A stretch of 43,194 nucleotides of DNA from an uncultured Bacteroidia bacterium (lineage in GTDB: Bacteria > Bacteroidota > Bacteroidia > Bacteroidales > F082). The translations under genes and the position numbers were made by a program. The DNA lies in contig CADBZW010000027.1 in assembly GCA_902799345.1 (NCBI GenBank), positions 1 to 43,194 of the forward strand. The letters run 5' to 3'. The notes beneath the pieces were generated by a model, which did not search any database, was not told where the DNA came from, and saw only the letters and a list, made by a program, of their open reading frames with translations. This document shows, one piece after another, positions 17,637 to 33,925 of this stretch (position 1 is the stretch's first letter; each line of letters begins with the position of its first letter).

Positions 17637-19043
17637 ATGAAAGTCAACGTCAAGGTCATATTGTTTTCACTCACCGCTGTCGTCTTGTTTCTCTTCCCGA
17701 TACAGCAAGCCACGGGCCTCTTCAAATTCAAGAAGCTTTATGGTGCTATGGAGGAACAGCCCAAGCCCCGACTGACGGCACAGCAATGGCTTGACTGCAG
17801 CTTTCAGGACGGCGCCGAGGCTTATCTGCAACAGCATTATGGCTTTCGGGAGCCATTAACGCGCCTTTACAACCAGTACATCTGGGATTGCTACGGCTTG
17901 ACCTTCGCCAAGGAAAGAAACTGGGTCTTCGTCAGCGACGACGGATGGTATTACGAATCGAGTTATGTGCAGGAATACTACGAAGGCAGCTCCTGGAAAT
18001 ACGCCCAAGACTCCTTGCAGATGGCGAATATCCTTGGCAGGGAAGCCTTGATGCTTTCCCAAACCCAACAGATCCTCGACAGCATGGGGGTCCACCTTTT
18101 TGTGTTGCTGGAGCCAGGGAAAGAATTAATCTATCCCGAACACATCCCTACCAACACGCAATACCACCACGACAAGGTGTTCTCGGCCCACAAGTTCCTT
18201 CACCAACGCTTCGAGGAGCTAGGCATCCACTACATCGACGCGGGAGAATGGTTCTTGCAGATGAAAGACACCGTCGACTTTCCCCTGTTTCCGCAGACGG
18301 GAACGCATTGGAGCAACCTCGCCGCCATGTATGTCGCCGACAGCCTCATCCGCTACATGGAAGACTTAGGCGACGTCAACATACTGAATTTCAAGATTGG
18401 GGAGAAATACGTCAAGACCAAAGAGCCTGACAACGACCTCGAAGAATGGCTGAACCTCATGCGCCCTCTGAAAGGAGAGCCTAACTATTACGCCAAGACC
18501 CCCATCGTGGACGACCCCACAGCCGTGAAACCCAGGCTCATCACCATCGGCGACTCGTTCTATTGGAACATCCTCAACCACGCGCCATTCAAGAGAATCT
18601 TCGGCAGCGTCCCTTATTGGTATTACTTTAGCACCATCTATTTCGATGGCCCCGAGGTGAATGTAGCCGACATCGACCTGCTCGAAAAGGTGACGGGAGC
18701 CGACTTCATCATGCTGGCCTATAGCACGCCACAGCAATACGAGATGAGCAACGGCTTCGCGCAACGCTTCCTGATGGAATGGTGCTACGACAAAGAAGAA
18801 ATTGAGCCTTTGAAACAGAAGATGAAGGAACGCATTAGCCATGACACGCCCTGGATGGACGGTATCGTCAAAAAAGCTGAAAACATGGGCGTTTCCGCAG
18901 ATTCAGTCCTGAATATGGAGACCGCCTATTTCATCACCAAGCGTCCCGATGTCTGCTTCCCCGCCCTGACCGACAGTATTCCGCTCAAACGGTCGGGCAA
19001 AGCCGAACTCCTCCTAAAACGAAAGAGCCACACCGATGAATAG
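17637..19043 (+). CDS. AlgJ/AlgX/DHHW-type SGNH protein 1
   Basis: The 468-residue protein has an N-terminal membrane anchor (VKVILFSLTAVVLFLFPIQQ) and a periplasmic SGNH-type domain of the alginate O-acetylation family. In AlgJ, AlgX and PatB this domain takes acyl groups passed through an MBOAT protein and puts them on a polymer. Visible: HYGFREPLTRLYNQ near 65-80, GKELIYPEHIP, TGTHW (G222, T223, H224, W225) and IGDSF with the nucleophile Ser307. The Asp of the canonical Asp-x-His-Trp motif is Gly222. The C-terminus (about 399-434) has one copy of the helical module DTPWM..VKKAENMG. The start is 20 bases after a -7 element. Its stop overlaps the next start by 8 bases. Closest relative in the window: the next gene. 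Confidence 0.85.
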   Translation: MKVNVKVILFSLTAVVLFLFPIQQATGLFKFKKLYGAMEEQPKPRLTAQQWLDCSFQDGAEAYLQQHYGFREPLTRLYNQYIWDCYGLTFAKERNWVFVSDDGWYYESSYVQEYYEGSSWKYAQDSLQMANILGREALMLSQTQQILDSMGVHLFVLLEPGKELIYPEHIPTNTQYHHDKVFSAHKFLHQRFEELGIHYIDAGEWFLQMKDTVDFPLFPQTGTHWSNLAAMYVADSLIRYMEDLGDVNILNFKIGEKYVKTKEPDNDLEEWLNLMRPLKGEPNYYAKTPIVDDPTAVKPRLITIGDSFYWNILNHAPFKRIFGSVPYWYYFSTIYFDGPEVNVADIDLLEKVTGADFIMLAYSTPQQYEMSNGFAQRFLMEWCYDKEEIEPLKQKMKERISHDTPWMDGIVKKAENMGVSADSVLNMETAYFITKRPDVCFPALTDSIPLKRSGKAELLLKRKSHTDE

Positions 19044-20319
19044 CCGCACCCAAGTCATATTGTTCGCCTTGACCGCCCTGTTGCTGTTTGCCTCCGCAAT
19101 ACAACAACAGACGGGGCTTTTCAAGTTCAAGGAGCTGAATGGCGTGGTCTATTCGAACTCTAAACCCGACTTGACTTGGAACAACTTCCTCGATGGTGGC
19201 TTGCAGGACTCGACCGAGGCTTACCTGCAACAAAACTTTGGCTTCCGCGAGCCTCTGACGCGATTCTACAACCAGATGGAGTGGACTTTGTTCCGCTATT
19301 CTCAGGTGGCCGCGGACAAGCGTATCGTCATTACCGACGACAACTGGATTTTTGAGCCGTGGACGGTGGAGGAATACTACCAAAGCCACGCCTACCAACA
19401 TGCCAAAGACTCGTTGGAGATGGCTGAAACATTAGAGGCTGAAGCGCAAAGACTACTCAGACTACAACAGCTGCTTGAGCCTTACCACACCCGCCTCTTC
19501 GTGGCACTGCTGCCAGGCAAGGAATTAGTTTGCGGCGAGCACATGCCCAAAAACACCAGCTACATCAAGGAAAAGAAAATCACGGCATACGACTTCTATA
19601 GGACACGATTCAAAGAGCTGGGCGTCAACCACATCGACTTGGGTGAATGGTTCGTTCAGATGAAAGACACGGTGAGCTATCCGCTGTTTCCGCAGACGGG
19701 CACGCACTGGAGCAACCTCGCCGCCATCCACAGCACCGACACCCTCATCCGCTACATGGAACACCTGAGCGACTCCAACATGGTCAATATCAGGGTTGGC
19801 AACGCTTGGCAGCGCACCCTCAAGCCCGATGCCGACCTCGAAAGCCTGATGAACCTCATTTGGCCCATACAGAAAGCGCCCAACATGTTCGCTACGGCCA
19901 TTTACGACCTCGACACCACGGCCTGGCGTCCGAAGCTTATCACCGTTGGTGACTCGTTCTATTGGAACATCCTCAACTATACGCCAGTGTGGGCCGTGTT
20001 TGAAAGCGTCCCCTATTGGTATTACTTCAGCACCGTCTATTTCGGTGACGACGACCTTAACGTGACCCATAAGATCAGCGACATCGACGTGCTTCAAGAG
20101 GTCATCGACGCCGACTTCGTCATGCTCTCCTACTCCACCACGGCCCTTTACAAGATGAGCAACGGCTTCAGCCAAAGCCTGCTCGACAAATTAATACAAA
20201 ACCAACAAACTGAACAATATGTACGGCTGCCACACTGTGACAGCACCAAACACGTACGGCTGCCACACTGTGACAGCCCTACAACTGTAAACTATAAATG
20301 TACGGCTGCCACACTGTGA
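19036..20319 (+). CDS. AlgJ/AlgX/DHHW-type SGNH protein 2, C-terminus made from repeats
   Basis: A 427-residue paralogue of protein 1 with the same order of motifs at the same residue numbers: membrane anchor VILFALTALLLFASAI, NFGFREPLTRFYNQ, GKELVCGEHMP, TGTHW (G222-W225) and VGDSF with Ser307. The canonical Asp is again Gly. After SNGFSQSLLDKL, where protein 1 goes on with its helical module, this protein ends in VRLPHCDST, VRLPHCDSP and CTAATL, which are read from three copies of the dispersed repeat at 20221-20344; the stop codon lies in the third copy. The native C-terminus was evidently lost. Translation is probably coupled to the gene before it. Confidence 0.82.
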   Translation: MNSRTQVILFALTALLLFASAIQQQTGLFKFKELNGVVYSNSKPDLTWNNFLDGGLQDSTEAYLQQNFGFREPLTRFYNQMEWTLFRYSQVAADKRIVITDDNWIFEPWTVEEYYQSHAYQHAKDSLEMAETLEAEAQRLLRLQQLLEPYHTRLFVALLPGKELVCGEHMPKNTSYIKEKKITAYDFYRTRFKELGVNHIDLGEWFVQMKDTVSYPLFPQTGTHWSNLAAIHSTDTLIRYMEHLSDSNMVNIRVGNAWQRTLKPDADLESLMNLIWPIQKAPNMFATAIYDLDTTAWRPKLITVGDSFYWNILNYTPVWAVFESVPYWYYFSTVYFGDDDLNVTHKISDIDVLQEVIDADFVMLSYSTTALYKMSNGFSQSLLDKLIQNQQTEQYVRLPHCDSTKHVRLPHCDSPTTVNYKCTAATL

Positions 20320-20360
20320 CAGCCCTACAACTGTAAACTATAAACTGTAAACTATAAACT
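20221..20360. repeat. Three copies of the GGCTGCC..GTG..CAGCC repeat plus an AACTGTAAACTATAA tandem
   Basis: GTACGGCTGCCACACTGTGA starts at 20221, 20254 and 20300. The last two are part of a 46-base tandem unit ending in CTACAACTGTAAACTATAAA. Short CTGTAAACTATAAA repeats follow up to 20360. The core GGCTG..CAC..GTG..CAGCC is an imperfect palindrome. The block forms the end of protein 2 and the spacer before the first MBOAT gene. Confidence 0.92.
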
Positions 20361-20368
20361 GAAAAAAA

Positions 20369-21826
20369 ATGGTATTCAGCAGTAACGTATTCCTACTCTA
20401 TTTCATGCCAGCGTTCTTCCTGGTGTATTTCCTCATGCCAAAGAAGACCCGCAACTATGTGCTTTTGCTGGCTTCGCTCATCTTCTATGCCTGGGGCGCA
20501 CCTGAGTTCATCATTCAGCTGGTCGTTTCCCTCGTCGCCAACTTCTTACTGGTCAAGTGGATGTGCGCCACCGAGAACCCCCGAAAACGCAAATGGCTCT
20601 GCGGCATCTCCATCGCCATACCGCTGGGGTTACTGTTCGTCTACAAGTACGGCAACTTCACCATGGAGAACCTCAACGCCCTCATTGGCCTGACGGGTCA
20701 CGCGCCGCTGTCGTGGAAGCGCATCATGCTACCCATCGGCATCTCGTTCTTCTCGTTCCAGAGCGTGACCTACACCTTGGACACCTACCGTGGCGTCAAC
20801 CAGCCGTTGAAGAAGCTGAGCGACTACATGCTATACATCACCATGTTCCCGCAGCTCATCGCAGGTCCCATCGTGCGCTACTGCGACGTCGCCGACCAAA
20901 TCCGCACGCGTGAGTCGACGATGGCCGACCGCCTGCAGGGTTTCTACCGCTTCGTCATCGGTTTAAGCAAAAAGATTCTCATCGCTGATGTCATCGGCTT
21001 GTGTGTCGACAAGATGCTGGGGCCCGCCGCCCTCGACCCCTCACAGGTGGGCGGCATCATGACACGCATCGCCACTTTGGACACGGGCACGGCCTGGCTT
21101 GTGGCTTTGGCCTACACCTTCCAAATCTATTTCGACTTCGCCGGTTATTCCGACATGGCCATCGGATTGGGCCGTATCATGGGCTTCAAGTTCCCCGAGA
21201 ACTTCGACAACCCCTACACCTCACGCAGCATCACCGAGTTCTGGAGACGTTGGCATAAGACCCTCGGCGCTTTCATCATGAACTACCTCTACATCCCGCT
21301 GGGCGGCAACCGCAAGGGCACGGGACGCATGTACCTCAACCTTTGGCTTTGCTTCCTACTTAGCGGCTTGTGGCACGGCGCATCATGGAACTTCGTCGTT
21401 TGGGGTGCCTTGCACGGCCTCTTTATCTGCCTCGACAAACTCTTCCTCGGCAAGGTGATGAAGAAAATCGGCACGGTGCCTTCCGTCATCCTTACTTTCA
21501 TCACGGTTTGCGTCATCTGGGTGTTCTTCCGCATCGAGAACCTCAACTTGGCCTGGACCTTCGTCACGCGCATGTTCGCCTTCGACTTTAGCGGCTTCGC
21601 TTTCGACGGCAACGCCCAGGTCTACACCATCATGGTGGTGGCAGCCCTCTTCTCCTTCTTCACCCTGACGGGATGGGGCAAGAAAGTGGAGCAAAAGGTC
21701 TACTACACCGACTATAGCGACCGCCAGCACATCTGGGTGTGGATTGTGGCCGCCATCGTGTTCATCTTCTGCGTGGCCGCGCTCAATGCTACGAGCTTCA
21801 GCCCGTTCATTTACTTTAGGTTCTGA
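20369..21826 (+). CDS. MBOAT acyltransferase 1 (AlgI-like)
   Basis: A 485-residue polytopic inner-membrane protein of the MBOAT family, AlgI type. Such proteins take acetyl (or another acyl) from cytoplasmic CoA and pass it across the membrane to an AlgJ/DltD-like partner. It has about ten or more hydrophobic segments; signature pieces include LPIGISFFSFQSVTY, FPQLIAGPIVRY, YFDFAGYSDMAIG, FWRRWHKTLG, YIPLGGNRKG and LSGLWHGASWNF (His336), followed by WGALHG (His349). The C-terminus is FSPFIYFRF, matching the C-terminal Tyr-containing motif of DltX and AlgI-type proteins, where the Tyr is proposed to carry the acyl group. The MVFSSN start is shared by all three MBOATs here. The next gene begins 2 bases after its stop. 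Confidence 0.93.
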   Translation: MVFSSNVFLLYFMPAFFLVYFLMPKKTRNYVLLLASLIFYAWGAPEFIIQLVVSLVANFLLVKWMCATENPRKRKWLCGISIAIPLGLLFVYKYGNFTMENLNALIGLTGHAPLSWKRIMLPIGISFFSFQSVTYTLDTYRGVNQPLKKLSDYMLYITMFPQLIAGPIVRYCDVADQIRTRESTMADRLQGFYRFVIGLSKKILIADVIGLCVDKMLGPAALDPSQVGGIMTRIATLDTGTAWLVALAYTFQIYFDFAGYSDMAIGLGRIMGFKFPENFDNPYTSRSITEFWRRWHKTLGAFIMNYLYIPLGGNRKGTGRMYLNLWLCFLLSGLWHGASWNFVVWGALHGLFICLDKLFLGKVMKKIGTVPSVILTFITVCVIWVFFRIENLNLAWTFVTRMFAFDFSGFAFDGNAQVYTIMVVAALFSFFTLTGWGKKVEQKVYYTDYSDRQHIWVWIVAAIVFIFCVAALNATSFSPFIYFRF

Positions 21827-21828
21827 TC

Positions 21829-23583
21829 ATGACGCGAGACGGGGGGACACGGGACACGAGACGCAGGACGACCTACGACATCGTCCTGTTCTGCATCCTT
21901 ATGGTGCTGCTCTTCCTGCCTATGCTTCAAGCCCATGTCCTACGCATCCCCTTGAAGCCTTTGAACGGCGTGACCATCGAAACGGAGAAGCCGGAATTTG
22001 AGCTTGAATCCTATCGTTCGGGCGCATACGCCAAACAAGAAGAGGCTTTTGTGGGCGAACATTTCGGCTTTCGGGAGCCTATTATCCGACTTTACAACCA
22101 ATACCTCTGGAGCTGTTACAAGAAAACCTACGCCCACGACGTGATGGCAGGCAAACAAGGCTGGCTTTACACCCCCGAGAGCGTCAGCGACTACTATGGC
22201 ACCGAGCTACTGAACTGGCAGCCCTCGGTCGAAGAGGCCCGACGTAATTTCGAACGCGAGGTGAAATACCTATGCCACGCTCGCGACATCCTCAAAGAAA
22301 ACGACGTGGAATTGTTGGCCTTCATTGCCCCAGAAAAAAGCTTTGTCTATCCCGAGTATCTCCCTGATGGTGAACACGATACCACTACCATTAACGCCTG
22401 TGCCACTTTTTTGCACAGGTTCGCGGAAAACGGATTCCCTTGCATCGACATGACCAGCTGGTTCAAGCAGATGAAAGACACCGTCGACTATCCCGTGATT
22501 CCGCAAACGGGCGCCCATTGGGTCTTCCCCGCCGTGTATGCCGCCGACTCGCTGTTTCGCTTCATGGGCGAATTGAAAGGCATCGAACTGCCCAAGCTGA
22601 AATACGGTGCGTTGCACGAAAGCGACAACCACGGCACCGACAACGACCTGGAGCGGCTGCTTAACCTTTCGCTACCCATCAGGAAACGCCAAGGCTATAG
22701 CCCTACAGCAGAGGTCACGGTAGAGCATAGGACAAACAGTGTCAAACCCAGAGTGCTGTTTATTGGCAACTCGTTCATGTGGGGCTTCGCCACCCGGTTG
22801 CCAATGAAGGAAGTGTTTGACGAGGTGGAGTTTTGGTACTACTTCTCCACCGCCTACACTGGCGACCCGTTGACACCGAGCGGCAATGTCGTCGACCTCA
22901 ACCTGCTCGAAAAGCTGTTGGATTTCGACTATATCGTGTGGTTCACCACAGGCAACCAGCTGAACAAAGGCACCAACGGCTTTGCCAATTCCGTCATTCT
23001 CACCCTTGGTGTTGACGACAGCATCCGGCAGGCATACATCGACCGCATTGCCGACACGATTTGTAGAGACGCGATTAATCGCGTCTCCACAGACAGCATC
23101 AGCCGAAAAGAGGCCATCGCCATCCTGCACAACCACCCGGAAATCATCCCCGAATTGAACGCCGAAACGCTGACTACAAAAAACAGCAACATCCCCTACG
23201 CCAAGGTCACCAAGGACATCCGCAAAGACAGCATATGGATGGCGGCTTTAAACGCACAGGCTTTCCTGCGCAGCGCCACGATGGACCAAATGCTCCATGC
23301 AGAAGTGGACCGCATCAAGGCGGGCAAGCCGCTCTACAAAGACCAAGCCGAGGAAATCAGGTTCTCATTGTTAGTACAAGAAGAAGTCAGGCAACGCATA
23401 GAACGGATTCCCAACCACAAGGAATTGATGGAAAGCATCCGCGAAAAAGCCATAAGACTCAACAAGCCTCTTGACAAAGCCATTAAAGACGATGCCATTT
23501 GGATCACACGGGAAAAATACGGTCTCGACCATTGTCGCCTCATCGACGACCCCGATGCCGAAATCCCGATACCGCCAGGCTGA
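21829..23583 (+). CDS. AlgJ/AlgX/DHHW-type SGNH protein 3, long form
   Basis: A 584-residue SGNH protein with a membrane anchor (IVLFCILMVLLFLPMLQ), HFGFREPIIRLYNQYLW, the DYYGTE motif shared with proteins 6 and 8, EKSFVYPEYLP, TGAHW (G228, A229, H230, W231) and IGNSF with nucleophile Ser315. The canonical Asp is Gly228. Two helical modules follow (about 460-500 and 519-563). Two parts come from repeats: the first ~15 residues (TRDGGTRDTRRR) are read from the GACGCGGGAC-type repeat, and CRDAINRVST is read from the palindrome at 23063-23090. There is no later Met before the anchor, so the start at 21829 stands. Confidence 0.85.
   Translation: MTRDGGTRDTRRRTTYDIVLFCILMVLLFLPMLQAHVLRIPLKPLNGVTIETEKPEFELESYRSGAYAKQEEAFVGEHFGFREPIIRLYNQYLWSCYKKTYAHDVMAGKQGWLYTPESVSDYYGTELLNWQPSVEEARRNFEREVKYLCHARDILKENDVELLAFIAPEKSFVYPEYLPDGEHDTTTINACATFLHRFAENGFPCIDMTSWFKQMKDTVDYPVIPQTGAHWVFPAVYAADSLFRFMGELKGIELPKLKYGALHESDNHGTDNDLERLLNLSLPIRKRQGYSPTAEVTVEHRTNSVKPRVLFIGNSFMWGFATRLPMKEVFDEVEFWYYFSTAYTGDPLTPSGNVVDLNLLEKLLDFDYIVWFTTGNQLNKGTNGFANSVILTLGVDDSIRQAYIDRIADTICRDAINRVSTDSISRKEAIAILHNHPEIIPELNAETLTTKNSNIPYAKVTKDIRKDSIWMAALNAQAFLRSATMDQMLHAEVDRIKAGKPLYKDQAEEIRFSLLVQEEVRQRIERIPNHKELMESIREKAIRLNKPLDKAIKDDAIWITREKYGLDHCRLIDDPDAEIPIPPG
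21831..21869. repeat. GACGCGGGAC-type repeat forming the 5' end of SGNH gene 3
   Basis: GACGCGAGACGGGGGGACAC, then GGGACACGAGACGCAGGAC. Related to the block at 259-332. It directly follows the ATG at 21829 and encodes a charged N-terminal tail. Confidence 0.75.
23063..23090. repeat. 28-base palindrome in SGNH gene 3
   Basis: A second copy of the palindrome at 16251-16278, with the same core GACGCGATTAATCGCGTC and one change in the right arm. In this gene's frame it encodes CRDAINRVST, the same peptide as in the U32 protein. Confidence 0.95.
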
Positions 23584-23590
23584 TGCCTAT

Positions 23591-23676
23591 GTCATACCGA
23601 GGAGTTTGTCTGCATAGATACACTCCCTCCTTCGTCGGTCGGTATGACATGCAGACAAACTCCGAGAGTATCTATG
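23591..23676. repeat. Interleaved inverted-repeat element in the spacer
   Basis: Three inverted-repeat pairs lie in the order A-B-C-A'-B'-C': GTCATACCGA (23591) with TCGGTATGAC (23639), GGAGTTTGTCTGCAT (23601) with ATGCAGACAAACTCC (23649), CATAGATAC (23613) with GTATCTATG (23668). All pairs are perfect. The order is crossed, not nested. Confidence 0.85.
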
Positions 23677-23693
23677 AGCATTAAATTAATTAC

Positions 23694-23701: not shown

Positions 23702-23725
23702 CAAACCAATAACAGACGATAGAAC

Positions 23726-25195
23726 ATGGTATTCAGCAGCAACGTATTCCTACTCTACTTCATGCCGATTTTCTTCCTGGTGTATTTCATCCTGCCGAAG
23801 AAAGTCCGCAACTACTTCCTGCTGTTGGCCTCACTCGTCTTTTACGCCTGGGGCGCACCAGAGTTCATCATTCACCTAATTGTCAGCGTAATAGCCAACT
23901 TCTATTTGGTGCGCTGGATGAACAAGACCGAAAAACCAGGCATGAAAAAACTGCTCTGCGGCATCTCGATTGCCATCAGCATCGGGTTGCTGTTCTACTT
24001 CAAGTACGGCAACTTCACCATGCAAAACATCAACTCGGTGCTGGGTTGGTTTGGAGGCCGGCCGTTGCAATGGACCAAGATCCTACTGCCCATCGGCATC
24101 TCGTTCTTCTCGTTCCAAAGCGTGACTTACACCTTGGACACCTATCGTGGCGTCAATGCTCCAATGAAGCGGTTGAGCGACTACATGCTCTACATTGTCA
24201 TGTTCCCGCAACTGATTGCAGGACCCATCGTGCGCTACTGCGACATCGCCGACCAAATCCGCAACCGCGAATCGCTTTATACAGACCGTTTGCATGGCTT
24301 CTACCGCTTCGTCATAGGTTTGGCGAAGAAAGTGCTGATTGCTGACGTCATCGGCTTCCAAGTCGACCAAGTGCTTGGGCCGTCGAACTACGATGTGTTG
24401 ACCTCGGCCCAACTCGCCGACATCGCCAACAAGATTGCCACCATCGACTCGACCACGGCTTGGATTGCCATCTTCGCCTTCACCTTCCAAATCTACTTTG
24501 ATTTCGCAGGTTATTCTGACATGGCCATCGGCTTGGGCCGCATGATGGGCTTCAAGTTCCCCGAAAACTTTGACAATCCGTACGTCTCCACCACCATTTC
24601 AGAGTTTTGGCGCCGTTGGCACCAAACCTTCAGCGTGTTCATCAAGAACTACCTCTACTTCCCCTTGGGCGGCAGTCGCGTGAAGACCGAAGCGAGAAAA
24701 TACTTCAACCTGTGGTTCTGCTTCCTCGTCAGCGGTCTGTGGCATGGCGCGGCGTGGAACTTTGTGGTCTATGGTGCCTTGCAGGGCATCTTCATCTGCG
24801 CCGACAAGCTGTTTTTGAAGAAATTCAACGAACGGTTAGGGCGCATCCCGAGCGTATTCTTCACCTTCCTCATCATCGTGTTGACACGTTGCTTCTTCCG
24901 CATCGAGCGCATCGACCTGTCGTGGCTGTTCATCAAGCGCCTGTTTACCTTCGACTTTGCACCGTTCCACTTCAGCGACAACCCGCACCTCTACGTCACC
25001 ATGCTTGTGGCAGCCTTCTTCTCGTTCTTCACCCTCTCGAAGTTCGGCCTCAAGGTGCAGGACAAGGTCTACTTTACCGAATACAACAAGCGCCAGCATA
25101 TCATCGCGTTTGTGGTCAGCATCCTAGCCTTTGTCTTCTGCCTTGGCGCGTTGAACGCCAGCGGTTTTAGTCCATTCATTTACTTTAGGTTCTAA
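23726..25195 (+). CDS. MBOAT acyltransferase 2 (AlgI-like)
   Basis: A 489-residue polytopic membrane protein, the closest paralogue of MBOAT 1 (near-identical blocks such as LPIGISFFSFQSVTYTLDTY and FPQLIAGPIVRYCD). It has YFDFAGYSDMAIGLGRMMG, FWRRWHQTF, YFPLGGSRVK and SGLWHGAAWNF with His340. The second conserved His (WGALHG in MBOAT 1, WGAFHG in MBOAT 3) is Gln353 here (YGALQG). The C-terminus is FSPFIYFRF. It may have its own promoter after the spacer at 23584-23725. SGNH gene 4 begins 11 bases after its stop, and MBOAT 3 follows that gene, so proteins 4 and 5 are the nearest partners. Confidence 0.92.
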   Translation: MVFSSNVFLLYFMPIFFLVYFILPKKVRNYFLLLASLVFYAWGAPEFIIHLIVSVIANFYLVRWMNKTEKPGMKKLLCGISIAISIGLLFYFKYGNFTMQNINSVLGWFGGRPLQWTKILLPIGISFFSFQSVTYTLDTYRGVNAPMKRLSDYMLYIVMFPQLIAGPIVRYCDIADQIRNRESLYTDRLHGFYRFVIGLAKKVLIADVIGFQVDQVLGPSNYDVLTSAQLADIANKIATIDSTTAWIAIFAFTFQIYFDFAGYSDMAIGLGRMMGFKFPENFDNPYVSTTISEFWRRWHQTFSVFIKNYLYFPLGGSRVKTEARKYFNLWFCFLVSGLWHGAAWNFVVYGALQGIFICADKLFLKKFNERLGRIPSVFFTFLIIVLTRCFFRIERIDLSWLFIKRLFTFDFAPFHFSDNPHLYVTMLVAAFFSFFTLSKFGLKVQDKVYFTEYNKRQHIIAFVVSILAFVFCLGALNASGFSPFIYFRF

Positions 25196-25206
25196 CCCTA
25201 ACAGCT

Positions 25207-26406
25207 ATGAAAACAAAACCAAGACATATCATCTTTACTGTTTGCCTTGTGGCAACGATTGCAGCATGCATGTATAAAGGTTTTCCTAGGTTTTGGGAAC
25301 GCTGTTATAATCAGGTGGCTTATTCCTTTTTAGGCAAAACCATCAATCCGTATGTCGTCAAAGGGAGAGCTAACGAGCTGTTTTTAAAGCCCAATATCGA
25401 TGACATCTCGGGGAAAACACTCCTGGACCATTATGGCAGCATAGAAAATGCCAAAGCCGAGGCCCAAAAAAACGTTGAAGCCACCAAGAGACTCATCGAC
25501 ACCCTTCATCGGCATGGAAGTGATTTTTTGTTTGTTTTTTGTCCCACAAAACCAGCTGTCTATCCAGAATATCTGCCCAAAGACATACAAAAACAAATCT
25601 CAGGGTTTTCGATGGCCGATTATTACATCCAACTGTTCAAGGAAAACGGTATTCCCCATATTGATTTTTATAGTCACTTCAAAAATGTCAAAAACAGTTT
25701 CCCGTATCCACTTTACACACGATATGGCAGTCATTGGGCAGAATCCACTATACCTTTCGTTGGCGATTCCATCTACAGGAAGTTGGAAGAGATAGCTGGC
25801 ATTGAACTCCCCTCCATCCGCACTATCGATCTTAATCTCACCAAGGATTATTCCATCCAAGACGATGAATTGGAACCGGGACTCAACCTGCTTTTTTCTT
25901 TACCCAAGCCCAAACTACCCCGTCCCATTTGCTCATTGACCGACACCTTGGGCAAAGATCGTCCCAATCTTTTAGTCATTTGTGATGGCTATTTTACTCC
26001 TTTAGCCAATTCGTGTTTTTTGGATGCTTTTCACCATTGGGATTATTGGATATATAACCGCGATACGTATTCCTCAAGGCCCGCCTACCATTGGCGACAT
26101 CTGGACATGCTGTATGAAGCCGCAGAAATCTTGGAGGAAGCCGACATCGTCATCGCTCTCTATACCTCAAATTACTTGTTCGATTATTTACATGGATTTA
26201 CGGAAAGCGCCCAAGACTTATTGCAACATGGGAAATATGACAGACAAGAATCCATCCAATTAATCATCGAGCAAATCAAGGCCGACCCACAATGGATGGA
26301 GGCCGTTGAGCAACAGGCCAGGGAACGAGGCCTATCCACAGAGGAAAACCTCTATCAAAACGCCGAATATGTATTCAACCAAAATGAAATGAAAAAAGAG
26401 CAATAG
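25207..26406 (+). CDS. AlgJ/AlgX/DHHW-type SGNH protein 4, probable pseudoenzyme
   Basis: A 399-residue protein, closest to protein 5 (shared RLIDTLHRHGS/T-FLFVF, DYYIQLFKENGIPHIDF, KDRPNLLVI). Two changes suggest loss of catalysis: the nucleophile Ser of the GDSF-type motif is Gly261 (CDGYF; protein 5 has ADSYF), and about 50 residues between the anchor and CYNQ are absent, including the GFRE block present in all other members. The His motif is YGSHW (G174, S175, H176, W177). TKPAVYPEYLP is intact. TIAAC near residue 21 resembles a lipobox, so it may be a lipoprotein rather than anchored by a helix. One helical module (about 354-392) is kept. The gene is visibly more A/T-rich than its neighbours. 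It may be a binding or scaffold subunit. Confidence 0.8.
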   Translation: MKTKPRHIIFTVCLVATIAACMYKGFPRFWERCYNQVAYSFLGKTINPYVVKGRANELFLKPNIDDISGKTLLDHYGSIENAKAEAQKNVEATKRLIDTLHRHGSDFLFVFCPTKPAVYPEYLPKDIQKQISGFSMADYYIQLFKENGIPHIDFYSHFKNVKNSFPYPLYTRYGSHWAESTIPFVGDSIYRKLEEIAGIELPSIRTIDLNLTKDYSIQDDELEPGLNLLFSLPKPKLPRPICSLTDTLGKDRPNLLVICDGYFTPLANSCFLDAFHHWDYWIYNRDTYSSRPAYHWRHLDMLYEAAEILEEADIVIALYTSNYLFDYLHGFTESAQDLLQHGKYDRQESIQLIIEQIKADPQWMEAVEQQARERGLSTEENLYQNAEYVFNQNEMKKEQ

Positions 26407-26408
26407 CC

Positions 26409-27824
26409 ATGGTCTTCAGTAGCAACATATTCCTTTTCTTTTTTTTGCCCGTATTCCTTGCGGCGTATTTCATCACGCCAAGGAAGTTCAGGAACTATAC
26501 TTTATTGCTGTTCTCGCTCATCTTCTACGCTTACGGAGCCCCCGACTTCGTCTTCCTGCTCGTCGGGGAATGCATCGTCAACTACTTCATCGTGCGAGGC
26601 ATGGCCAAGACCGAGAAGACAGGCACGAAGAAATGGCTCTGCGCCCTCTCCGTCATCATGGCCTTGGGGCTGCTGCTGTACTTCAAGTATGCCAACTTCT
26701 TCATGGAGAACCTCAACGCCATTCTCGGCTGGATGCATCACGAGCCTGTCGGTTGGATGAAAGTGGCCTTGCCCATCGGCATCAGCTTCTTCACTTTCCA
26801 AAGCATCACCTACACCATAGACGTGTATCGTGGCACCACGCCGCCGAGCAACAAGCTGACCGACTATGTGCTGTATATCATGATGTTTCCGCAACTCATC
26901 GCGGGTCCCATCGTCAACTACAACAGCGTGGCGGCACAACTCGTGGAGCGCACCAGCACGATGGAAGACCGCGTGGTGGGGTTCTACCGTTTTGTCATCG
27001 GCTTGGGCAAGAAAGTGCTCATCGCCAACACCTTGGCCGCCTACGCCGACCAGGTCTTCGCCATGAACTACGGCGACTTGGCCACGGGCACGGCATGGAT
27101 CGGCATCCTCTCCTATACCTTCCAGATCTACTTCGACTTCTCGGGCTACAGCGACATGGCCATCGGTCTCGGCAAGATGATGGGATTCAAGTTCCCTGAA
27201 AACTTCAACGACCCCTACACCAGCCGCAGCGTCACCGAGTTCTGGAAACGCTGGCACATGACCTTGGGCAACTTCATCATGAACTACCTCTACATCCCTT
27301 TGGGCGGCAACCGAAAGGGCAAGGGACGCATGTACCTCAATCTGTGGCTCTGCTTCCTGCTCTCGGGACTGTGGCACGGCGCCAGCTGGACCTTCGTCCT
27401 CTGGGGTGCCTTCCACGGCCTGTTCATCTGCGCCGACAAACTCTTCCTGAAAGACCTGCTGAAGAAGGCGGGCAAGTGGCCAGCGGTCATTCTCACCTTC
27501 TTCGTCGTCAACATGGGATGGGTGCTGTTTCGCGTCGACACCGCTGCCGATGCAGGTGGCTTCTACCAAGCCCTGTTCTCCTTCAAGGGCGGCATGACAC
27601 AGCCCGGCGACCTCCTGTTCTGGTTCACCTTCGCTTTGGCCGTGGTGTTCTCCTTCCTCACCCTCTTCAAAGGCGGACAGAAGCTGCAGGACGCCATCTT
27701 CGCCGACCATTACTCCAAAGGCCTGTCATGGACGATGTTCGCCCTCTGCCTGGTGCTGTTCATCCTCTCTGCCGGCTCCTTGTGTGTTTCCGACTTCAAT
27801 CCCTTCATCTACTTCAGATTCTAA
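26409..27824 (+). CDS. MBOAT acyltransferase 3 (AlgI-like)
   Basis: A 471-residue polytopic membrane protein, more distant from MBOATs 1 and 2 than they are from each other (NYNSVAAQLVERTSTMEDRV in place of RYCDVADQIRTRES). All family pieces are present: LPIGISFFTFQSITY, FPQLIAGPIV, YFDFSGYSDMAIGLGKMMG, FWKRWHMTLG, YIPLGGNRKGKG, SGLWHGASWTF with His323 and WGAFHG with His336. The C-terminus is FNPFIYFRF. It starts 2 bases after the stop of SGNH gene 4, and SGNH gene 5 starts 3 bases after its own stop, so it is embedded in one transcript. Confidence 0.93.
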   Translation: MVFSSNIFLFFFLPVFLAAYFITPRKFRNYTLLLFSLIFYAYGAPDFVFLLVGECIVNYFIVRGMAKTEKTGTKKWLCALSVIMALGLLLYFKYANFFMENLNAILGWMHHEPVGWMKVALPIGISFFTFQSITYTIDVYRGTTPPSNKLTDYVLYIMMFPQLIAGPIVNYNSVAAQLVERTSTMEDRVVGFYRFVIGLGKKVLIANTLAAYADQVFAMNYGDLATGTAWIGILSYTFQIYFDFSGYSDMAIGLGKMMGFKFPENFNDPYTSRSVTEFWKRWHMTLGNFIMNYLYIPLGGNRKGKGRMYLNLWLCFLLSGLWHGASWTFVLWGAFHGLFICADKLFLKDLLKKAGKWPAVILTFFVVNMGWVLFRVDTAADAGGFYQALFSFKGGMTQPGDLLFWFTFALAVVFSFLTLFKGGQKLQDAIFADHYSKGLSWTMFALCLVLFILSAGSLCVSDFNPFIYFRF

Positions 27825-27827
27825 GCC

Positions 27828-29183
27828 ATGAATAAGAAGCCTCGTTTCCTCATCCAATTTGTTTGCTTTGCGGCAGTCTTTCTAGCCATACTGCTGCAAA
27901 GCTTTACAGGCTTTGTCAAGATGAACCCTTTGCAAGGCTTTGACAAAGAAGAGCCAACACCTGTTGCGTTGACGTTCAAGACCTACTATGACGGCTCCTA
28001 CCAAGACTATCTGACCGAACACGCCAAGCGCAACACGGGCTTTCGCGAGTTTTTTATCCGTAGCTACAACCAAATGGCCTATTCCTGCTTCGGCAAAATC
28101 ACCAACGACAATATCGTGGAAGGACGCAACCATGAGTTGTATCTCAAGATGTATCTGAACGATATCACGGGCAAAACGATAGAGAAAGATTTCGGCACTG
28201 TTGATCAAGCTAAGGTCGTTGCCCAAAACAACGTAGAGGAAACCTTGCGCCTCATCGACACGCTGCATCGGCACGGCACCGAGTTCCTGTTTGTGTTTGC
28301 CCCGTCGAAGACCTGGGTCTACCCCGAAAACATGCCTAAAGCCTACCGTCAACATGTTTCCGACTTCTCGTTGGAAGAATATTACATCCAACTCTTCAAG
28401 AAAAACGGCATCGCTCATATCGACTTCCTCGACTATTTCAGGAACAACAAGGAAGCCTTAAAAAACACGCCTTATTATCCACTCTTCCCTCGCACGGGGA
28501 CACATTGGGCCGAGGCCACCATCCCCCTTGTGGCCGACTCTATACTGAAAAAGCTGTCGGCTATCACAGATTACTCCTTGCCTTCGGTACATTATGTTGA
28601 TGAGAACCTCACCACTGACTATTCCGTCCAAGATGGTGAGCTGGAGGCCTCGATGAACTTGCTCTTCCCTTTGAAAAAGCCTGCCATCCCCAAGCCCATC
28701 TTCACCCTGACCGATACCATAGGCAAAGACAAGCCCAATCTACTCGTCATCGCCGACAGCTATTTCGTTCAACTTAGGATTTCGGACTTCTCCAAGGCTT
28801 TCAACCATTGGGACTATTGGGCGTATAACCGCGACGTGCAGGCATCACGAAAGGAATACCAATGGATGGAACTGAAATACCTCGCCGACGCCCCTACCAT
28901 CTTGAAAGAGGCCGACATCGTTCTGGCCCTGTTCACCGCTCCCATGTTTTATAACTACATGTTCGGCTTCACCCAGTCGGCACAAGAGCTTTATCAAAAA
29001 GGAGAGCCTACATTCGACGACCTCGTGCAAATGACCATCCATCAAATCAAGTTGAATCCGAAATGGATGGATGCTGTCGAAAAACAAGCGGCTGAATTAG
29101 GCATTTCCGTTGAAGAAAACTTGATGCGCAATGCAAAATATGTCGTTGAAATGAAACAAACGAAGGCATCCCAAAATGACTAG
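27828..29183 (+). CDS. AlgJ/AlgX/DHHW-type SGNH protein 5
   Basis: A 451-residue protein with a membrane anchor (FVCFAAVFLAILLQSF), DGSYQDYLTEHAKRNTGFRE then FFIRSYNQ, APSKTWVYPENMP, TGTHW (G224, T225, H226, W227) and IADSYF with the nucleophile Ser311. The canonical Asp is Gly224 and the usual Gly before Asp-Ser is Ala309. It is the intact paralogue of protein 4, so a duplication around MBOAT 3 is likely. One helical module (about 404-442: NPKWMDAVEKQAAELGISVE) ends the protein. Expected location: inner membrane facing the periplasm. Confidence 0.85.
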   Translation: MNKKPRFLIQFVCFAAVFLAILLQSFTGFVKMNPLQGFDKEEPTPVALTFKTYYDGSYQDYLTEHAKRNTGFREFFIRSYNQMAYSCFGKITNDNIVEGRNHELYLKMYLNDITGKTIEKDFGTVDQAKVVAQNNVEETLRLIDTLHRHGTEFLFVFAPSKTWVYPENMPKAYRQHVSDFSLEEYYIQLFKKNGIAHIDFLDYFRNNKEALKNTPYYPLFPRTGTHWAEATIPLVADSILKKLSAITDYSLPSVHYVDENLTTDYSVQDGELEASMNLLFPLKKPAIPKPIFTLTDTIGKDKPNLLVIADSYFVQLRISDFSKAFNHWDYWAYNRDVQASRKEYQWMELKYLADAPTILKEADIVLALFTAPMFYNYMFGFTQSAQELYQKGEPTFDDLVQMTIHQIKLNPKWMDAVEKQAAELGISVEENLMRNAKYVVEMKQTKASQND

Positions 29184-29189
29184 GAAAAG

Positions 29190-30872
29190 ATGAAGAAACG
29201 TAGTTCCATATTCTACGGCATATTGTTTGGCCTCTTGATGGTCTTCCTATTCTCGTTTATGATTCAGGAGCACTTCAAGCCATTCAAGACCAAGGAGTTG
29301 ATGGGGTATTTCCTGAAGCCCAACAAACCCAAATTCCGTTGGGAGTGGTACAAGAACGGCTATTTCCAACAAAGCCTTGAAAAATACATCACCAACAACT
29401 ACGGTTTCCGCGAGCCTATCATAAGACTCTATCACCAATATTGCTGGGACTTCTACGGCAAGGAATATGTGAGCTATATCCATTCGGGCAAGGAAAGGTG
29501 GCTCTATTACGGCCACAACATTGAAGACTATTACGGTACCGAGATGTACAATTGGTATCCTGACGCCGAGGCTGCAAGAAAAGGTTATGAGCAGGAGGTA
29601 CGACTAATGAAAAAAGTAAAAGGTATCTTGGACGAATATGACGTCACTTTGCTGACTTTCATCGCGCCCAGATACTTCATCAAACGTTTTGCTGAGACGA
29701 ACATGCCTTGTTTCGACATGAACGAATACTTCCTGCGGATGAAAGACACTTGCTCGTTCTACCTGTTCCCGCCCACGGGCGACCACTGGAACTTCTCCTG
29801 CGTTTATGCCACCGACTCGCTGCTGCGCTTCATGGAACAACAAAGAGACATTCGGCTGCCCCGCATCGCATACGGCAACGAATGGCATAACACCTGCCGC
29901 ATCGGCGATGACCAAAACCGTGACCTTGAGGGCGAACTCAACCTCATTCGGCCCATCAAATTCAATCCGAAATTCGACTACAAGGAACGTGACTACTGGC
30001 TGACTTCCGATTCCACGACGGTCAAGCCCTCAGCCCTGTTCATCGGCAATTCCTTCTTGCTGAGAACAATGGCATACATCCCACCCAAAGAGGTATTTTC
30101 CGACTTCCAGTTCTGGTATTACAATCGTGTGATCTATCAAGATGTCGACAAAATCATCGACAGTGTCAACACGCTCGACCGCCTCGATTACCTTCTCGAT
30201 GCCGACTACATCGTTTGGTTCTCAAGCAGCAGCCAGATGTACCGAGCCACTGAAGGCTTCGCCGAAGACGCCATCATCCAACTCTGTATCGGCGATGAGC
30301 GATTCCGTCAACGCCAGGAGCAGCTGATTGACAGCCTCTTCCACGACCAAGCCACCCACAACGCCATCGCCTGGAACTATCCCGACTCGCTCTACCGCAT
30401 CAAATTGGAAAGCTATACGCTCGACCTACTACGTAAAAACCCCGAAGCCTATTTCCCAGAAATTGCTGGCGAGGGCATACCTGCTGTGCGGAATCCCAAA
30501 TTATTGGAAGAAGATTATTGGATAAAGCGTGACATCCGCCGACAGATCAAGCACGACCCCGAATGGATGACTAACGTTTCCGGTTTCATGGCGACCAAAG
30601 ACTTCACCTTGCAGCAAGCCATCGACCAAGAAACCGACAATGTGTTTTACGGCCGTCCGCTCATGCGCGACACCAAAATCGGGGCCAAAGAATACCGTGA
30701 AATCCTCATCCGGCAAACGGAACAGCAAATCAGAAACTACAAGGAGTGGTATGACGCAGTAAAAGCCGATGCCGAACAAAAAGGCATCACGGTGGAAGAA
30801 GCTGTACATGGCCATGCCACTTATACCGTTGACCAGCAGATCCATGAAGGAATAATTATCTTACCCGAATAA
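29190..30872 (+). CDS. AlgJ/AlgX/DHHW-type SGNH protein 6, long form with internal deletion
   Basis: A 560-residue long-form member like proteins 3 and 8: membrane anchor GILFGLLMVFLFSFM, NYGFREPIIRLYHQYCW, DYYGTEMYNWYPDAEAARKG, TGDHW (G197, D198, H199, W200) and IGNSF with nucleophile Ser288. Here an Asp sits directly before the His rather than two before it. Compared with protein 3, about 24 residues are missing after FIAP: the block P-x-K-x3-YPEYLP, found in all seven other members, is gone and the sequence runs straight into RYFIKRFAE. Two helical modules close the protein (about 447-486 and 509-548). The next ATG follows its stop codon with no gap. Confidence 0.83.
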   Translation: MKKRSSIFYGILFGLLMVFLFSFMIQEHFKPFKTKELMGYFLKPNKPKFRWEWYKNGYFQQSLEKYITNNYGFREPIIRLYHQYCWDFYGKEYVSYIHSGKERWLYYGHNIEDYYGTEMYNWYPDAEAARKGYEQEVRLMKKVKGILDEYDVTLLTFIAPRYFIKRFAETNMPCFDMNEYFLRMKDTCSFYLFPPTGDHWNFSCVYATDSLLRFMEQQRDIRLPRIAYGNEWHNTCRIGDDQNRDLEGELNLIRPIKFNPKFDYKERDYWLTSDSTTVKPSALFIGNSFLLRTMAYIPPKEVFSDFQFWYYNRVIYQDVDKIIDSVNTLDRLDYLLDADYIVWFSSSSQMYRATEGFAEDAIIQLCIGDERFRQRQEQLIDSLFHDQATHNAIAWNYPDSLYRIKLESYTLDLLRKNPEAYFPEIAGEGIPAVRNPKLLEEDYWIKRDIRRQIKHDPEWMTNVSGFMATKDFTLQQAIDQETDNVFYGRPLMRDTKIGAKEYREILIRQTEQQIRNYKEWYDAVKADAEQKGITVEEAVHGHATYTVDQQIHEGIIILPE

Positions 30873-32225
30873 ATGAAAAACCGTATTTGCACCATATTAT
30901 GCTTACTCACGATGATTGGTTTCGTGCTGGGCTTCGCGCAGGAGAAATGGCATCTATTCAAGCTGAAACCCTTGGGAGGCGTCACTTTCAAGACAGAATG
31001 TCCTCACCTGACGCTGCAAAGCTTCGCCTCGGGTGCCTTCCAGCGAGATGCCGAACAGTATAGCCGCGAGAACTTCGGTTTCCGCGAATGGCATATCCGT
31101 CTTTTTAACCAATTCAGACACAGCCTATTCGGACAAACCACCAACCAATTCGTCGTGAAAGGCAAGGATGGCAAAACTTTCTTCGAGGAGTCGTATGTCA
31201 TCAGCTATACGGGCGAAACTTACCTTGGCAAAGAAAAAATCCAAGAAAACGCACGACAACTGAAACTCATCCAAGACATGCTGCACGCCAAAGGCACCAC
31301 CTTGCTGCCGGTCTTCGTGTTGGGCAAGGCCTCCTTTTATCCAGAACTCATCCCCGAAAAATACATCGCCAAACGGCATGAGACCAACAACTACCAAGAA
31401 TACCTGAAAGCCTTTGAGCAACAAGGTCTTGAGATGATCGACTTCAACAGGTACTTCTGCGAGCGAAAAGGCTCAGAATCCCATCCCATCTACTGTAACC
31501 TGAGCGCCCATTGGACGGTGTATGCCGCCTCCCAAGCTGTCGACTCCTTGGTGCGCTATATGGAAGACAAAACACAACAAGAACAGGCGCATTTCAACAT
31601 CGAAGGCTTCGACACCTCCTACCTGATGGAGCAGGACGATGACCTCTATCGCATGATGAACCTCATGTTCCCGATGAGGCACAACACCATCGACCAGCCA
31701 CAGTTTAGCTTCACCGAGGGCTACAAGCCCAAGGTGCTGGCCATCAGCGACTCATACTGGTGGACCGTCTATGCCTGGAACGTGGCCTTGCCGCAAAACC
31801 TCTTCTCTGACGGCGGCTTCTGGTTCTATAACAAGACCATCTACCCCGAGCGCACACCCATCCAAAACGTGGAAGCCATCGATTACAAGCAAGAAATCGA
31901 AAACCAAGACTTCGTTCTCTTGGTCTGTACCGAAGCCACCAACCACCTTTGGCCCTACGGCTTCATCGAACGCTACCTGAGCAACTACGACAACGTGTTC
32001 CGCTACAAGCCAACGGAGCAATACGATGCTGCTGACAGCCTTTACCTTGACTATCGCAACACGGAAATCGAGAAAAATATCCAGCGCATCAAGGAATCGA
32101 CCGAATGGTTGGAGAGTGTCACGAGACAGGCCGACGAAAAGGGCATCACCGTAGAGCAGTCGCTGTGGGACAACGCCGAATACACCTATCGAATGGACAT
32201 TGAACCGAAAGGATTTGTAAGATGA
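30873..32225 (+). CDS. AlgJ/AlgX/DHHW-type SGNH protein 7
   Basis: A 450-residue protein. The N-terminal anchor (ICTILCLLTMIGFVLGF) and ENFGFREWHIRLFNQ block are nearly the same as in protein 8, showing recent duplication or conversion of the 5' end, but the middle part is closer to the short forms 4 and 5. Motifs: LGKASFYPELIP, LSAHW (S211, A212, H213, W214) and ISDSYWW with nucleophile Ser294. The canonical Asp is Ser211. One helical module (about 404-440: STEWLESVTRQADEKGITVE). Its stop overlaps the ATG of gene 8 by 4 bases (ATGA arrangement), so translation is coupled. Confidence 0.83.
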   Translation: MKNRICTILCLLTMIGFVLGFAQEKWHLFKLKPLGGVTFKTECPHLTLQSFASGAFQRDAEQYSRENFGFREWHIRLFNQFRHSLFGQTTNQFVVKGKDGKTFFEESYVISYTGETYLGKEKIQENARQLKLIQDMLHAKGTTLLPVFVLGKASFYPELIPEKYIAKRHETNNYQEYLKAFEQQGLEMIDFNRYFCERKGSESHPIYCNLSAHWTVYAASQAVDSLVRYMEDKTQQEQAHFNIEGFDTSYLMEQDDDLYRMMNLMFPMRHNTIDQPQFSFTEGYKPKVLAISDSYWWTVYAWNVALPQNLFSDGGFWFYNKTIYPERTPIQNVEAIDYKQEIENQDFVLLVCTEATNHLWPYGFIERYLSNYDNVFRYKPTEQYDAADSLYLDYRNTEIEKNIQRIKESTEWLESVTRQADEKGITVEQSLWDNAEYTYRMDIEPKGFVR

Positions 32226-33925
32226 AACGACCGATTTGCACCATATTATGCCTCGTCACCATGGTCGGCTTCGCCATGGTTTTCGTGCAGCAACAATGGC
32301 ATCCGTTCAAGCTGAAGCCATTGGCAGGCGTCACCTTTGCCACCGAAAAACCCGAACTGACGCTCAAGGACTTCGCCTCAGGCCAATACCAAAGCCAAAC
32401 GGAACAGTACAGCCGCGAAAACTTCGGCTTCCGCGAATGGCACATCCGACTCTACAACCAACTCAACTACAGCCTTTTCAACCAAACCACCTGCCACTTC
32501 ATCGTGCCAGGAAAAGACGGCTATCTCTTTTATACAGAAGCATTTAACGACTATTACGGCATTGAGCCTATCCACCAATACAAGACTTACGACCGTGCCC
32601 GCGAATGGGCAAGGAAAAACGTCAGGATGATGAATAAGCTTAGGTATGTGCTGAAAGACTATGGCGTTGAGTTCCTGTGTTTCGCCGCACCCAACAAGGC
32701 GGAAATCTACCCCGAGTACCTGCCTTATCACCAACCTGCGCCTGCCGATGCCATCCACACAGCCGCATACTACGACTCGTTGATGACCGCCATCGACTTC
32801 CCCCATGTGGAAATGACCAAATGGTACCAGGCGATGAAGGACACCGCCTCGTTCCTCTTGTTCCCCAAACGCGACACGCACTGGCGCTATTCGGCGGTTT
32901 ATGGCTATGACAGTCTTTTCTCTTATATGAACAGCCTCAACGACTTCGGCATCCCCGACATCCATGTTGACAGGTTGGTGAAACTCGACACAATGTATCC
33001 CGAAAACGACGAGAAAACGCTCAACCTGATGTTTCCCATCGGCAACGACTCGCCCAAGTACCGCGCCGACATCAGCGTGGACTGCGGTGAAGGCTGCCGC
33101 AAACCCAAAGTGCTCTTCGTGGGCGACTCATTCGTCTGGGACTTGGAAACCTACATGCCTTGGCGTGAGTTTATGGAGTATGTCGAAATCTGGTTCTACA
33201 ACAAGTCGGCCTTCCTCGGCTTTGAAAAAGAGAAGCATCCTATCGGCGAAATCAACCGACTGCGTTCCATCCTCAATGCCGATTATGTGGTATGGTATTC
33301 CTCTGGTTATCAATGGGGATTGTCGTCATACGACTTCGTGGAAGATGCCTTGCTGCGCCTCTGTGTTAGCGACAGCCTTTTTGACGCACAAATTCCGTGG
33401 GTGATGGACAGTTTGAGCCACGACAGCCTTTTCTGGAAATACCATTACCCATGGCGCTATTCCGAGCACCGCGACGATAGCTTGAGGCATTATGCCATCA
33501 AGACGCTGAAAGATGACCCCGAACTCATCCCAGGCCTCGGCGGTGAGACCATGCCCACTATCCGCAACTCTCAAGCCATTGCTTTGGCCCAACAAGCCAA
33601 TGCCATCGCCAACGACCGACAATGGAAGACCGCCTTGAACATTCAAGCCTCAAGAACGGGACGCACGTTTGACGAGCTTTTGGACGAAGAGGCCGAAAAC
33701 GTGATGTTAGGCAGGCCTTTGATGCGGCAAGAAATTGCAGTCGACACAGCCTCCATTATCGAGTTTGAGGTCCACAAACTGATGGAGCAATGGCGCAACA
33801 ACGCTGAGAGCGTCAATTACTTGGAGGACAAAGCCGCTGAGCGCGGGATGACCTTCGAGGAAATGCTGGAAGCCGATGCCCGCTGGGTGATCGACGAACG
33901 GCTGCGCAACGGGGAGTTGTTCTAA
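32222..33925 (+). CDS. AlgJ/AlgX/DHHW-type SGNH protein 8, canonical catalytic motifs
   Basis: A 567-residue long form and the last gene of the cluster. It is the only one of the eight with the canonical Asp-x-His-Trp motif (D218, T219, H220, W221 in KRDTHW) together with VGDSF and nucleophile Ser303, so it is the best candidate for a full SGNH acyltransferase or esterase. It also has the anchor ICTILCLVTMVGFAMVF, ENFGFREWHIRLYNQLNY, DYYGIE and APNKAEIYPEYLP. Two helical modules follow (about 459-495 and 518-560). It ends 116 bases before the convergent GH16-like gene. Confidence 0.87.
   Translation: MKRPICTILCLVTMVGFAMVFVQQQWHPFKLKPLAGVTFATEKPELTLKDFASGQYQSQTEQYSRENFGFREWHIRLYNQLNYSLFNQTTCHFIVPGKDGYLFYTEAFNDYYGIEPIHQYKTYDRAREWARKNVRMMNKLRYVLKDYGVEFLCFAAPNKAEIYPEYLPYHQPAPADAIHTAAYYDSLMTAIDFPHVEMTKWYQAMKDTASFLLFPKRDTHWRYSAVYGYDSLFSYMNSLNDFGIPDIHVDRLVKLDTMYPENDEKTLNLMFPIGNDSPKYRADISVDCGEGCRKPKVLFVGDSFVWDLETYMPWREFMEYVEIWFYNKSAFLGFEKEKHPIGEINRLRSILNADYVVWYSSGYQWGLSSYDFVEDALLRLCVSDSLFDAQIPWVMDSLSHDSLFWKYHYPWRYSEHRDDSLRHYAIKTLKDDPELIPGLGGETMPTIRNSQAIALAQQANAIANDRQWKTALNIQASRTGRTFDELLDEEAENVMLGRPLMRQEIAVDTASIIEFEVHKLMEQWRNNAESVNYLEDKAAERGMTFEEMLEADARWVIDERLRNGELF

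Follow-up and report, generated by a model that had tools for sequence, protein, structure and literature searches.

The window analyzed here, a stretch of 43,194 nucleotides, is one contig (C27) of the 3.13 Mb, 91% complete genome of an uncultured Bacteroidia bacterium. At positions 17637-33925 it holds eleven open reading frames (ORFs), all on the plus strand, which encode three MBOATs and eight AlgJ/AlgX-like SGNH proteins. An earlier note, made from the letters alone, had described these near-abutting genes at the same coordinates as an expanded MBOAT/AlgJ-type acylation cluster, and this description is supported by the protein families, the modeled fold of the first partner and the acyl-shuttle motif of the MBOATs. 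Judged by the same three lines (sequence, one partner's fold and shuttle motif), the run belongs to the MBOAT-SGNH acyltransferases. Known MBOAT-SGNH systems are small, and each is tied to one polymer. We consider it rather likely that the eleven genes form an expanded, mosaic array for envelope O-acylation, in which a small module of MBOAT, SGNH and GH16-like genes has been enlarged, and that it acylates an envelope glycan, as predicted below. New here are the array, its mosaic evolution, a GxHW subfamily of SGNH proteins and the GH16-like neighbor; no description of arrays of this kind was found in the literature searched. The run is laid out below in 5' to 3' order, with the letters A, B, C, D, E, e and F denoting SGNH clades from trees and M1, M2 and M3 the MBOATs g3, g5 and g7 (pLDDT, predicted local distance difference test).

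17637..19043, plus strand: g1, SGNH group A, motif GTHW / GDSF; PF16822 at 47.7 bits; model with pLDDT 95.5 and an AlgJ/PatB1 fold
19036..20319, plus strand: g2, SGNH group A, short-repeat C-terminal end; PF16822 at 42.6 bits; 52% identity to g1
20369..21826, plus strand: g3, MBOAT M1, C-terminus FIYFRF; PF03062 at 108 bits; DltB structures matched at E 1.7e-25
21829..23583, plus strand: g4, SGNH group B (long), motif GAHW / GNSF; PF16822 at 41 bits; repeated-palindrome copy at 23063-23090
23601..23663, no strand assigned: inverted repeat inside the 142-nucleotide gap between g4 and M2
23726..25195, plus strand: g5, MBOAT M2, C-terminus FIYFRF; PF03062 at 85.5 bits; 67% identity to M1
25190..26497, plus strand: tract near-identical to genome G002 (recent exchange); 5 mismatches in 1308 bases against ~6% on either side
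25207..26406, plus strand: g6, SGNH group e, with Gly in place of the nucleophile Ser (CDGY), ~46 residues behind the membrane anchor gone
26409..27824, plus strand: g7, MBOAT M3, C-terminus FIYFRF; PF03062 at 115.8 bits
27828..29183, plus strand: g8, SGNH group E, motif GTHW / ADSY; PF16822 at 41.1 bits
29190..30872, plus strand: g9, SGNH group C, a segment (PxK...YPE) lost in frame; no Pfam match; 34% identity to g4
30873..32225, plus strand: g10, SGNH group F, motif SAHW / SDSY; PF16822 at 58.4 bits; its usual upstream MBOAT, M4, is absent from the window
32222..33925, plus strand: g11, SGNH group D (long), sole full triad, DTHW / GDSF; PF16822 at 37.6 bits

All reading frames in the run are open, and intergenic gaps range from -8 to +49 nucleotides save for the 142 nucleotides that separate g4 from M2. 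All three MBOATs score above the curated cut-off of PF03062, and seven of the eight partners above that of PF16822 (ALGX); g9, with zero Pfam matches, was aligned to g4 across 584 columns. A hydrophobic N-terminal stretch is present in all eight partners by a simple count. The whole genome has seven PF16822 matches above cut-off, all of which fall within the window, together with three of the genome's six MBOATs. Another of these MBOATs, on contig C9 (L143 1-18001), adjoins an O-antigen-ligase-type protein (PF04932) and lies near genes that look by eye like glycosyltransferases, a classical polysaccharide setting. The three sequence groups into which the earlier note had sorted the partners were not recovered: the tree of 112 SGNH proteins gives four clades, namely g1 with g2, g4 with g9 and g11, g6 with g8, and g10 alone.

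A search of related genomes, which the earlier note had proposed, found the arrays in one slot across the genus. The same-genus counts come from fetched stretches of 62 genomes (a first set of 30 and 32 further) with 67 loci, many of which are cut off by contig or stretch ends. The chromosomal slot has a U32 peptidase gene on one side (in 29 of the 67 loci) and GH16-like (28), CotH (24) or S46 (17) genes on the other, GH16-like or CotH genes being present in 42. These stretches contain 0-8 SGNH and 0-4 classified MBOAT genes per genome, the window's eight SGNH genes being the maximum, and the partner sets differ from species to species. Besides the window's own genome, 30 of 35 from the genus carry PF16822 genes (at most seven per genome), as do seven of 24 other genomes of the order; in an order-wide sample, 69 of 197 genomes match PF16822, and outside the genus the maximum is five, with four or more in three genomes. 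The relatives are nearly all uncultured Bacteroidales, many, to judge by their titles, from the abomasum, rumen or gut of ruminants or horse. Since arrays of this kind turn up in separately assembled genomes of related species, the run is not an assembly artefact, a possibility that the earlier note had raised; nor are its parts fragments of separate glycan loci broken up by rearrangement, as the note had also considered. That partners differ from one species to another is explained by diversification no less well than by the note's proposal that one polymer is acylated at several positions, or several polymers are.

One SGNH gene of the run was exchanged between species recently, in one clear event. 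Compared with G002, a separate species by the way the genome collection was built, the g6 tract (~25190-26497, bounded by the end of M2 and the beginning of M3) has the 5 mismatches in 1308 bases listed above, against 38 in 588 bases before it and 37 in 600 after it. The synonymous divergence (dS) from G002 is 0.004 for g6, against 0.50 for M2, 0.23 for M3 and 0.12 for g8, and against 0.99, 0.89 and 0.71 for the flanking ABC, GH16-like and S46 genes. The next best-scoring g6 copy among 99 genus genomes (the window's included) has 67% identity, and G019, a relative that is closer at the array's left end, lacks g6 at that place. The ratio of nonsynonymous to synonymous divergence (dN/dS) shows purifying selection on both components, with values of 0.03-0.10 for the MBOATs and 0.07-0.21 for SGNH orthologues. 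By the same ratio, the Ser-less clade of g6 is under constraint too (0.115-0.161 in four genomes; 0.095-0.132 for the Ser-bearing group E in the same four genomes).

The C-terminal FXYXXF acyl-shuttle motif with its invariant Tyr is present in all three window MBOATs (FIYFRF) and in 74 of the 76 MBOATs in the set, the remaining two being cut at contig ends. His H336 of M1, within the sequence LWHG, is identical in all three window MBOATs, and we take it to be the conserved catalytic His of AlgI/PatA-kind MBOATs. The AlphaFold model of g1 (mean pLDDT 95.5), the one partner among the eight from which the permuted SGNH fold was seen, matches AlgJ, AlgX, PatB1 and a DHHW protein. The window partners keep the Ser in seven of eight cases and the His in all eight, and in the alignment of 112 SGNH proteins the His is present in all 112 and the Ser in 106, the six with Gly forming a single clade (g6 and its kin). 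At the position of the AlgJ catalytic Asp, these proteins have Gly (77), Asp (16), Ser (13), Ala (2), Asn (2), Glu (1) or Cys (1). The 16 Asp carriers consist of 14 proteins of group D (g11 type) and two AlgX-like outgroup proteins of one genome, and group D, whose 17 members have Asp (14), Asn (2) or Glu (1), is the sole genus clade with Asp. Full-length SGNH proteins from seven other Bacteroidales families (seven non-genus loci) read GxHW in ten of ten cases, with one partial protein unreadable there and shorter fragments unread; the Asp loss in this SGNH type therefore looks old, and group D, which is nested among GxHW proteins in the tree, has probably regained the Asp. The Lys of PxK is kept in 111 of 112 SGNH proteins; in AlgJ, PxK supports the Asp, according to an excerpt of PMC4148444. 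An acidic residue at g1 position 267 is present in 112 of 112, outgroups included, and is a candidate replacement for the classical Asp. A precedent for the Asp-less GxHW type is given by the CE2 SGNH enzymes, described in an excerpt of PMC9487903 as having Ser-His dyads without Asp.

Particular MBOATs are associated with particular SGNH groups. In the first 30 genomes, with p values that take genomes as unrelated (kinship not removed), M3 occurs with group E in 12 of 12 cases (p 1e-6), with E immediately 3' of M3 in 11 of 12, and M4 with group F in 5 of 6 (p 2e-4). In the 32 further genomes, which were chosen partly via g6-like DNA and are enriched in group E, the figures are 11 of 12 for M3 with E (p 0.005) and 7 of 7 for M4 with F (p 1e-4), with F directly downstream in all seven.

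Among known systems, the alginate AlgI/AlgJ/AlgX system of Pseudomonas shares with the run an AlgI-type MBOAT, membrane-anchored SGNH proteins of the ALGX Pfam family and the PxK and HW signatures, and AlgJ is the best Foldseek match for the g1 model. The run differs from it in having three MBOATs and eight partners, in lacking the Asp of DxH in seven of these and in a content that changes between species; because the triad fails in seven of eight partners, it is not a full AlgJ/AlgX member. No alginate polymerization or export gene is among the 21 window genes searched, two small left-end ORFs and the rest of the genome lying outside that search. PatA1/PatB1 of Bacillus cereus (DHHW family), which acts on the secondary cell wall polysaccharide, likewise combines an MBOAT with the permuted SGNH fold, and PatB1 has the top VIA-align Z (16.8) for the g1 model, whereas g1 has no DHHW motif and 12% identity, and the known system is one pair. 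The PatA/PatB system of peptidoglycan O-acetylation shares the MBOAT with a C-terminal FXYXXF acyl shuttle, but PatB belongs to an SGNH family, DUF459 according to an excerpt of PMC9487903, that is not that of the run's partners. With regard to DltB/DltD/DltX, no solved MBOAT other than DltB is matched by the M1 sequence, yet M1, the one MBOAT searched against NCBIfam TIGR04091, scores 151 bits against a cut-off of 375; no DltX is needed, since the shuttle motif is fused to the run's MBOATs. MdoG/OpgG of the osmoregulated periplasmic glucan type was found in none of the 21 genomes searched, the window's own included, with a positive E. coli control.

The earlier note had called the system stand-alone. 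This holds in that the run itself contains no gene for a glycosyltransferase, flippase or polymerase; it does not hold in that the run has a GH16-like neighbor, as do many of the genus loci, and that one array class (with the MBOAT M5) adjoins an LtaS/OpgB-type transferase. The genes on either side of the run are the following.

15668..17566, minus strand: U32 peptidase gene, a common left boundary, outside the system
34042..36015, minus strand: GH16-like membrane-anchored protein, motif SEIDIE; PF00722 at E 2.7e-4 and 20.9 bits, under the cut-off of 22
37205..43184, minus strand: two CotH proteins with type IX secretion system (T9SS) sorting tails and an S46 dipeptidyl-peptidase (Dpp7-like), a common right boundary

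The EIDIE motif of the GH16-like protein is invariant in 20 homologues. Outside the genus, 16 sampled genomes have a strong match to it (>300 bits), and in all 16 E-I-D-[IF]-E is kept; a lipoprotein-like N-terminal signal was recognized by eye in 15 of them, whereas the window's protein has a plain anchor. In seven of these 16 genomes, the GH16-like, SGNH and MBOAT genes lie within one 10-20 kb stretch, against a rough chance expectation of well under one in 16 at one to a few loci per genome. In three (G139, G125 and G168), a single MBOAT gene and a single SGNH gene form an unbroken row with the GH16-like gene; the other four have intervening genes or several copies. Residues ~151-203 of the GH16-like protein resemble the SGNH C-terminal segment, and the profile also matches g6, g8, g9 and g10 there.

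We propose that each MBOAT would take an acyl group, probably acetyl from acyl-CoA, and load it onto the Tyr of its own FIYFRF tail, which would carry it to the periplasmic face, where the membrane-anchored AlgJ-like SGNH proteins would receive it and transfer it to envelope-glycan hydroxyls. The array probably originated as a Bacteroidales module that combined an MBOAT with a GxHW-type SGNH protein and a GH16-like lipoprotein, the last of which may act on that glycan. The MBOAT and SGNH genes would then have multiplied within one chromosomal slot of the genus, SGNH genes being gained, lost and exchanged across species and MBOATs changing more slowly; since SGNH turnover would be the faster, we suggest that surface decoration varies, and the benefit may be escape from phage, protozoa or glycan-degrading enzymes. 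In a bolder form, which we put forward tentatively and hold to be less probable than its opposite, the locus would be a recombining 'acyl-code', in which slow MBOATs supply the acyl group, exchangeable and mostly faster SGNH proteins set the acceptor site, and species re-tailor a shared glycan; this SGNH type would work without the classical Asp, and the conserved Ser-less paralogue would be a non-catalytic modulator of a neighboring pair.

Several observations weigh against the preferred reading. The catalytic Asp of the AlgJ-type DxH is present in g11 only and missing from the other seven partners (mostly Gly), and the activity of the GxHW type is questioned because an Ala at the AlgJ Asp abolished alginate acetylation in vivo, esterase activity in vitro being down by only ~80% (PMC4148444, from the same excerpt). 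Furthermore, g6 lacks both the nucleophile Ser and ~46 residues behind its anchor, and g9 lacks the PxK...YPE segment that is kept by the three orthologues compared. The earlier description of eight SGNH proteins thus needs qualifying at the active site. In the second set of genomes, E directly follows M2 13 times and M3 in only 7 of 12 cases; therefore, E is not tied to M3. When phylogeny is controlled by the U32 tree (17 genomes), M3-E has two independent changes for and none against, and M4-F two for and 0-1 against, which is too few events. F is found without M4 in 5 of 17, the window included, so the surplus of partners over MBOATs (eight to three) may in part be due to a lost MBOAT. The dN/dS ranges of MBOATs and SGNH proteins overlap, g9 and g11 being as low as M1, and a scan of the arrays in 30 genomes (at least 250 bases at 94% identity or more) yielded six pairs, none of which shows another SGNH gene as sharply exchanged as g6. 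As for the GH16-like protein, its family score is below the cut-off, the PDB sequence search gave no match and its model is poor (pLDDT 55.6), and 9 of the 16 non-genus genomes have neither SGNH nor MBOAT near it.

The damaged partners could point to ordinary paralogue accumulation, in which acylation is done by a single active pair, such as g11 and an MBOAT, and the other SGNH genes are redundant or decaying. The losses in g6 and g9 and the missing M4 fit this, as does the repeat at the end of g2, though two orthologues of g2 likewise have no usual C-terminal segment. We regard it as unlikely, given that all frames are open, that dN/dS is low in SGNH orthologues and in the four Ser-less orthologues alike, that the His is kept throughout the 112 proteins, and that the 'dead' gene g6 has recently become common to two species. 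Another reading is that the decorated polymer bears phosphoglycerol or phosphoethanolamine, by analogy with Gram-positive LtaS and DltB/DltD or with osmoregulated periplasmic glucans. It is suggested by the neighbors of the M5 arrays: of 19 genomes with M5, 16 have an LtaS/OpgB-type sulfatase-fold protein beside the array and 6 an AT3 acyltransferase, whereas among 43 genomes that lack M5 the counts are 3 (p 2.8e-9 for the difference) and 0. In one genome outside the genus, genes of five kinds (AT3, sulfatase-fold, SGNH, MBOAT and GH16-like) are grouped. For the window this reading is quite unlikely: neither an LtaS/OpgB-type nor an AT3 gene is among its genes searched, the six sulfatase-fold proteins tested score far under the NCBIfam cut-off, and the MdoG/OpgG search was negative. 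The restriction of Asp to group D within the genus also fits a relay, in which most GxHW proteins are acyl carriers or scaffolds between the MBOAT and the terminal transferase g11 (DxHW). A comparable relay has been proposed for AlgJ and AlgX, and group D lies at or just past the 3' end in many arrays, not all. Yet a group D gene is present in the fetched stretches of only 16 of the 30 first-set genomes, and the ten full-length proteins at the seven non-genus loci are all GxHW. GxHW proteins therefore seem not to depend on D for their work, and we consider the relay improbable. An expanded and mosaic O-acylation array remains our preferred reading.

Further features of the window are as follows. 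At 20218-20325, a short direct repeat replaces the usual C-terminal segment at the end of g2. ARAGORN placed a tRNA-Leu on the minus strand at 25136-25228, across the M2/g6 junction, which had no Rfam support and was judged false. A 28-base palindrome is perfect at 16251-16278, inside the U32 frame, and has one mismatch at 23063-23090, inside the g4 frame; the genome has 28 copies of it at up to three mismatches, against 0 for the reversed control. Behind g11, the inverted repeat at 33949-34005 resembles a REP-type (repetitive extragenic palindromic) element, and a 150-base bin from 33951 has 99% identity to G002, against 76% at the adjoining end of g11. The tandem CotH-kinase proteins (37205-41037) have Fn3-associated domains and T9SS tails and share 71% and 63% identity with their G002 copies, less than other flanking genes. 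The T9SS-sorted protein at 7106-15487 (2793 residues) has cleaved-adhesin, DUF2436, MAM and fibronectin domains, a domain content akin to that of the Porphyromonas gingipain/haemagglutinin adhesins.

With an array that keeps its slot while its content varies, and that has as many as eight partners, two points become testable: whether the choice of acceptor lies with the SGNH partner alone, and whether this fold transfers acyl groups without the triad Asp. If such arrays diversify the surface glycans of this rumen genus, they would be candidate phage and protozoal resistance loci, and likewise candidates for a compact parts set for site-selective polysaccharide acylation.
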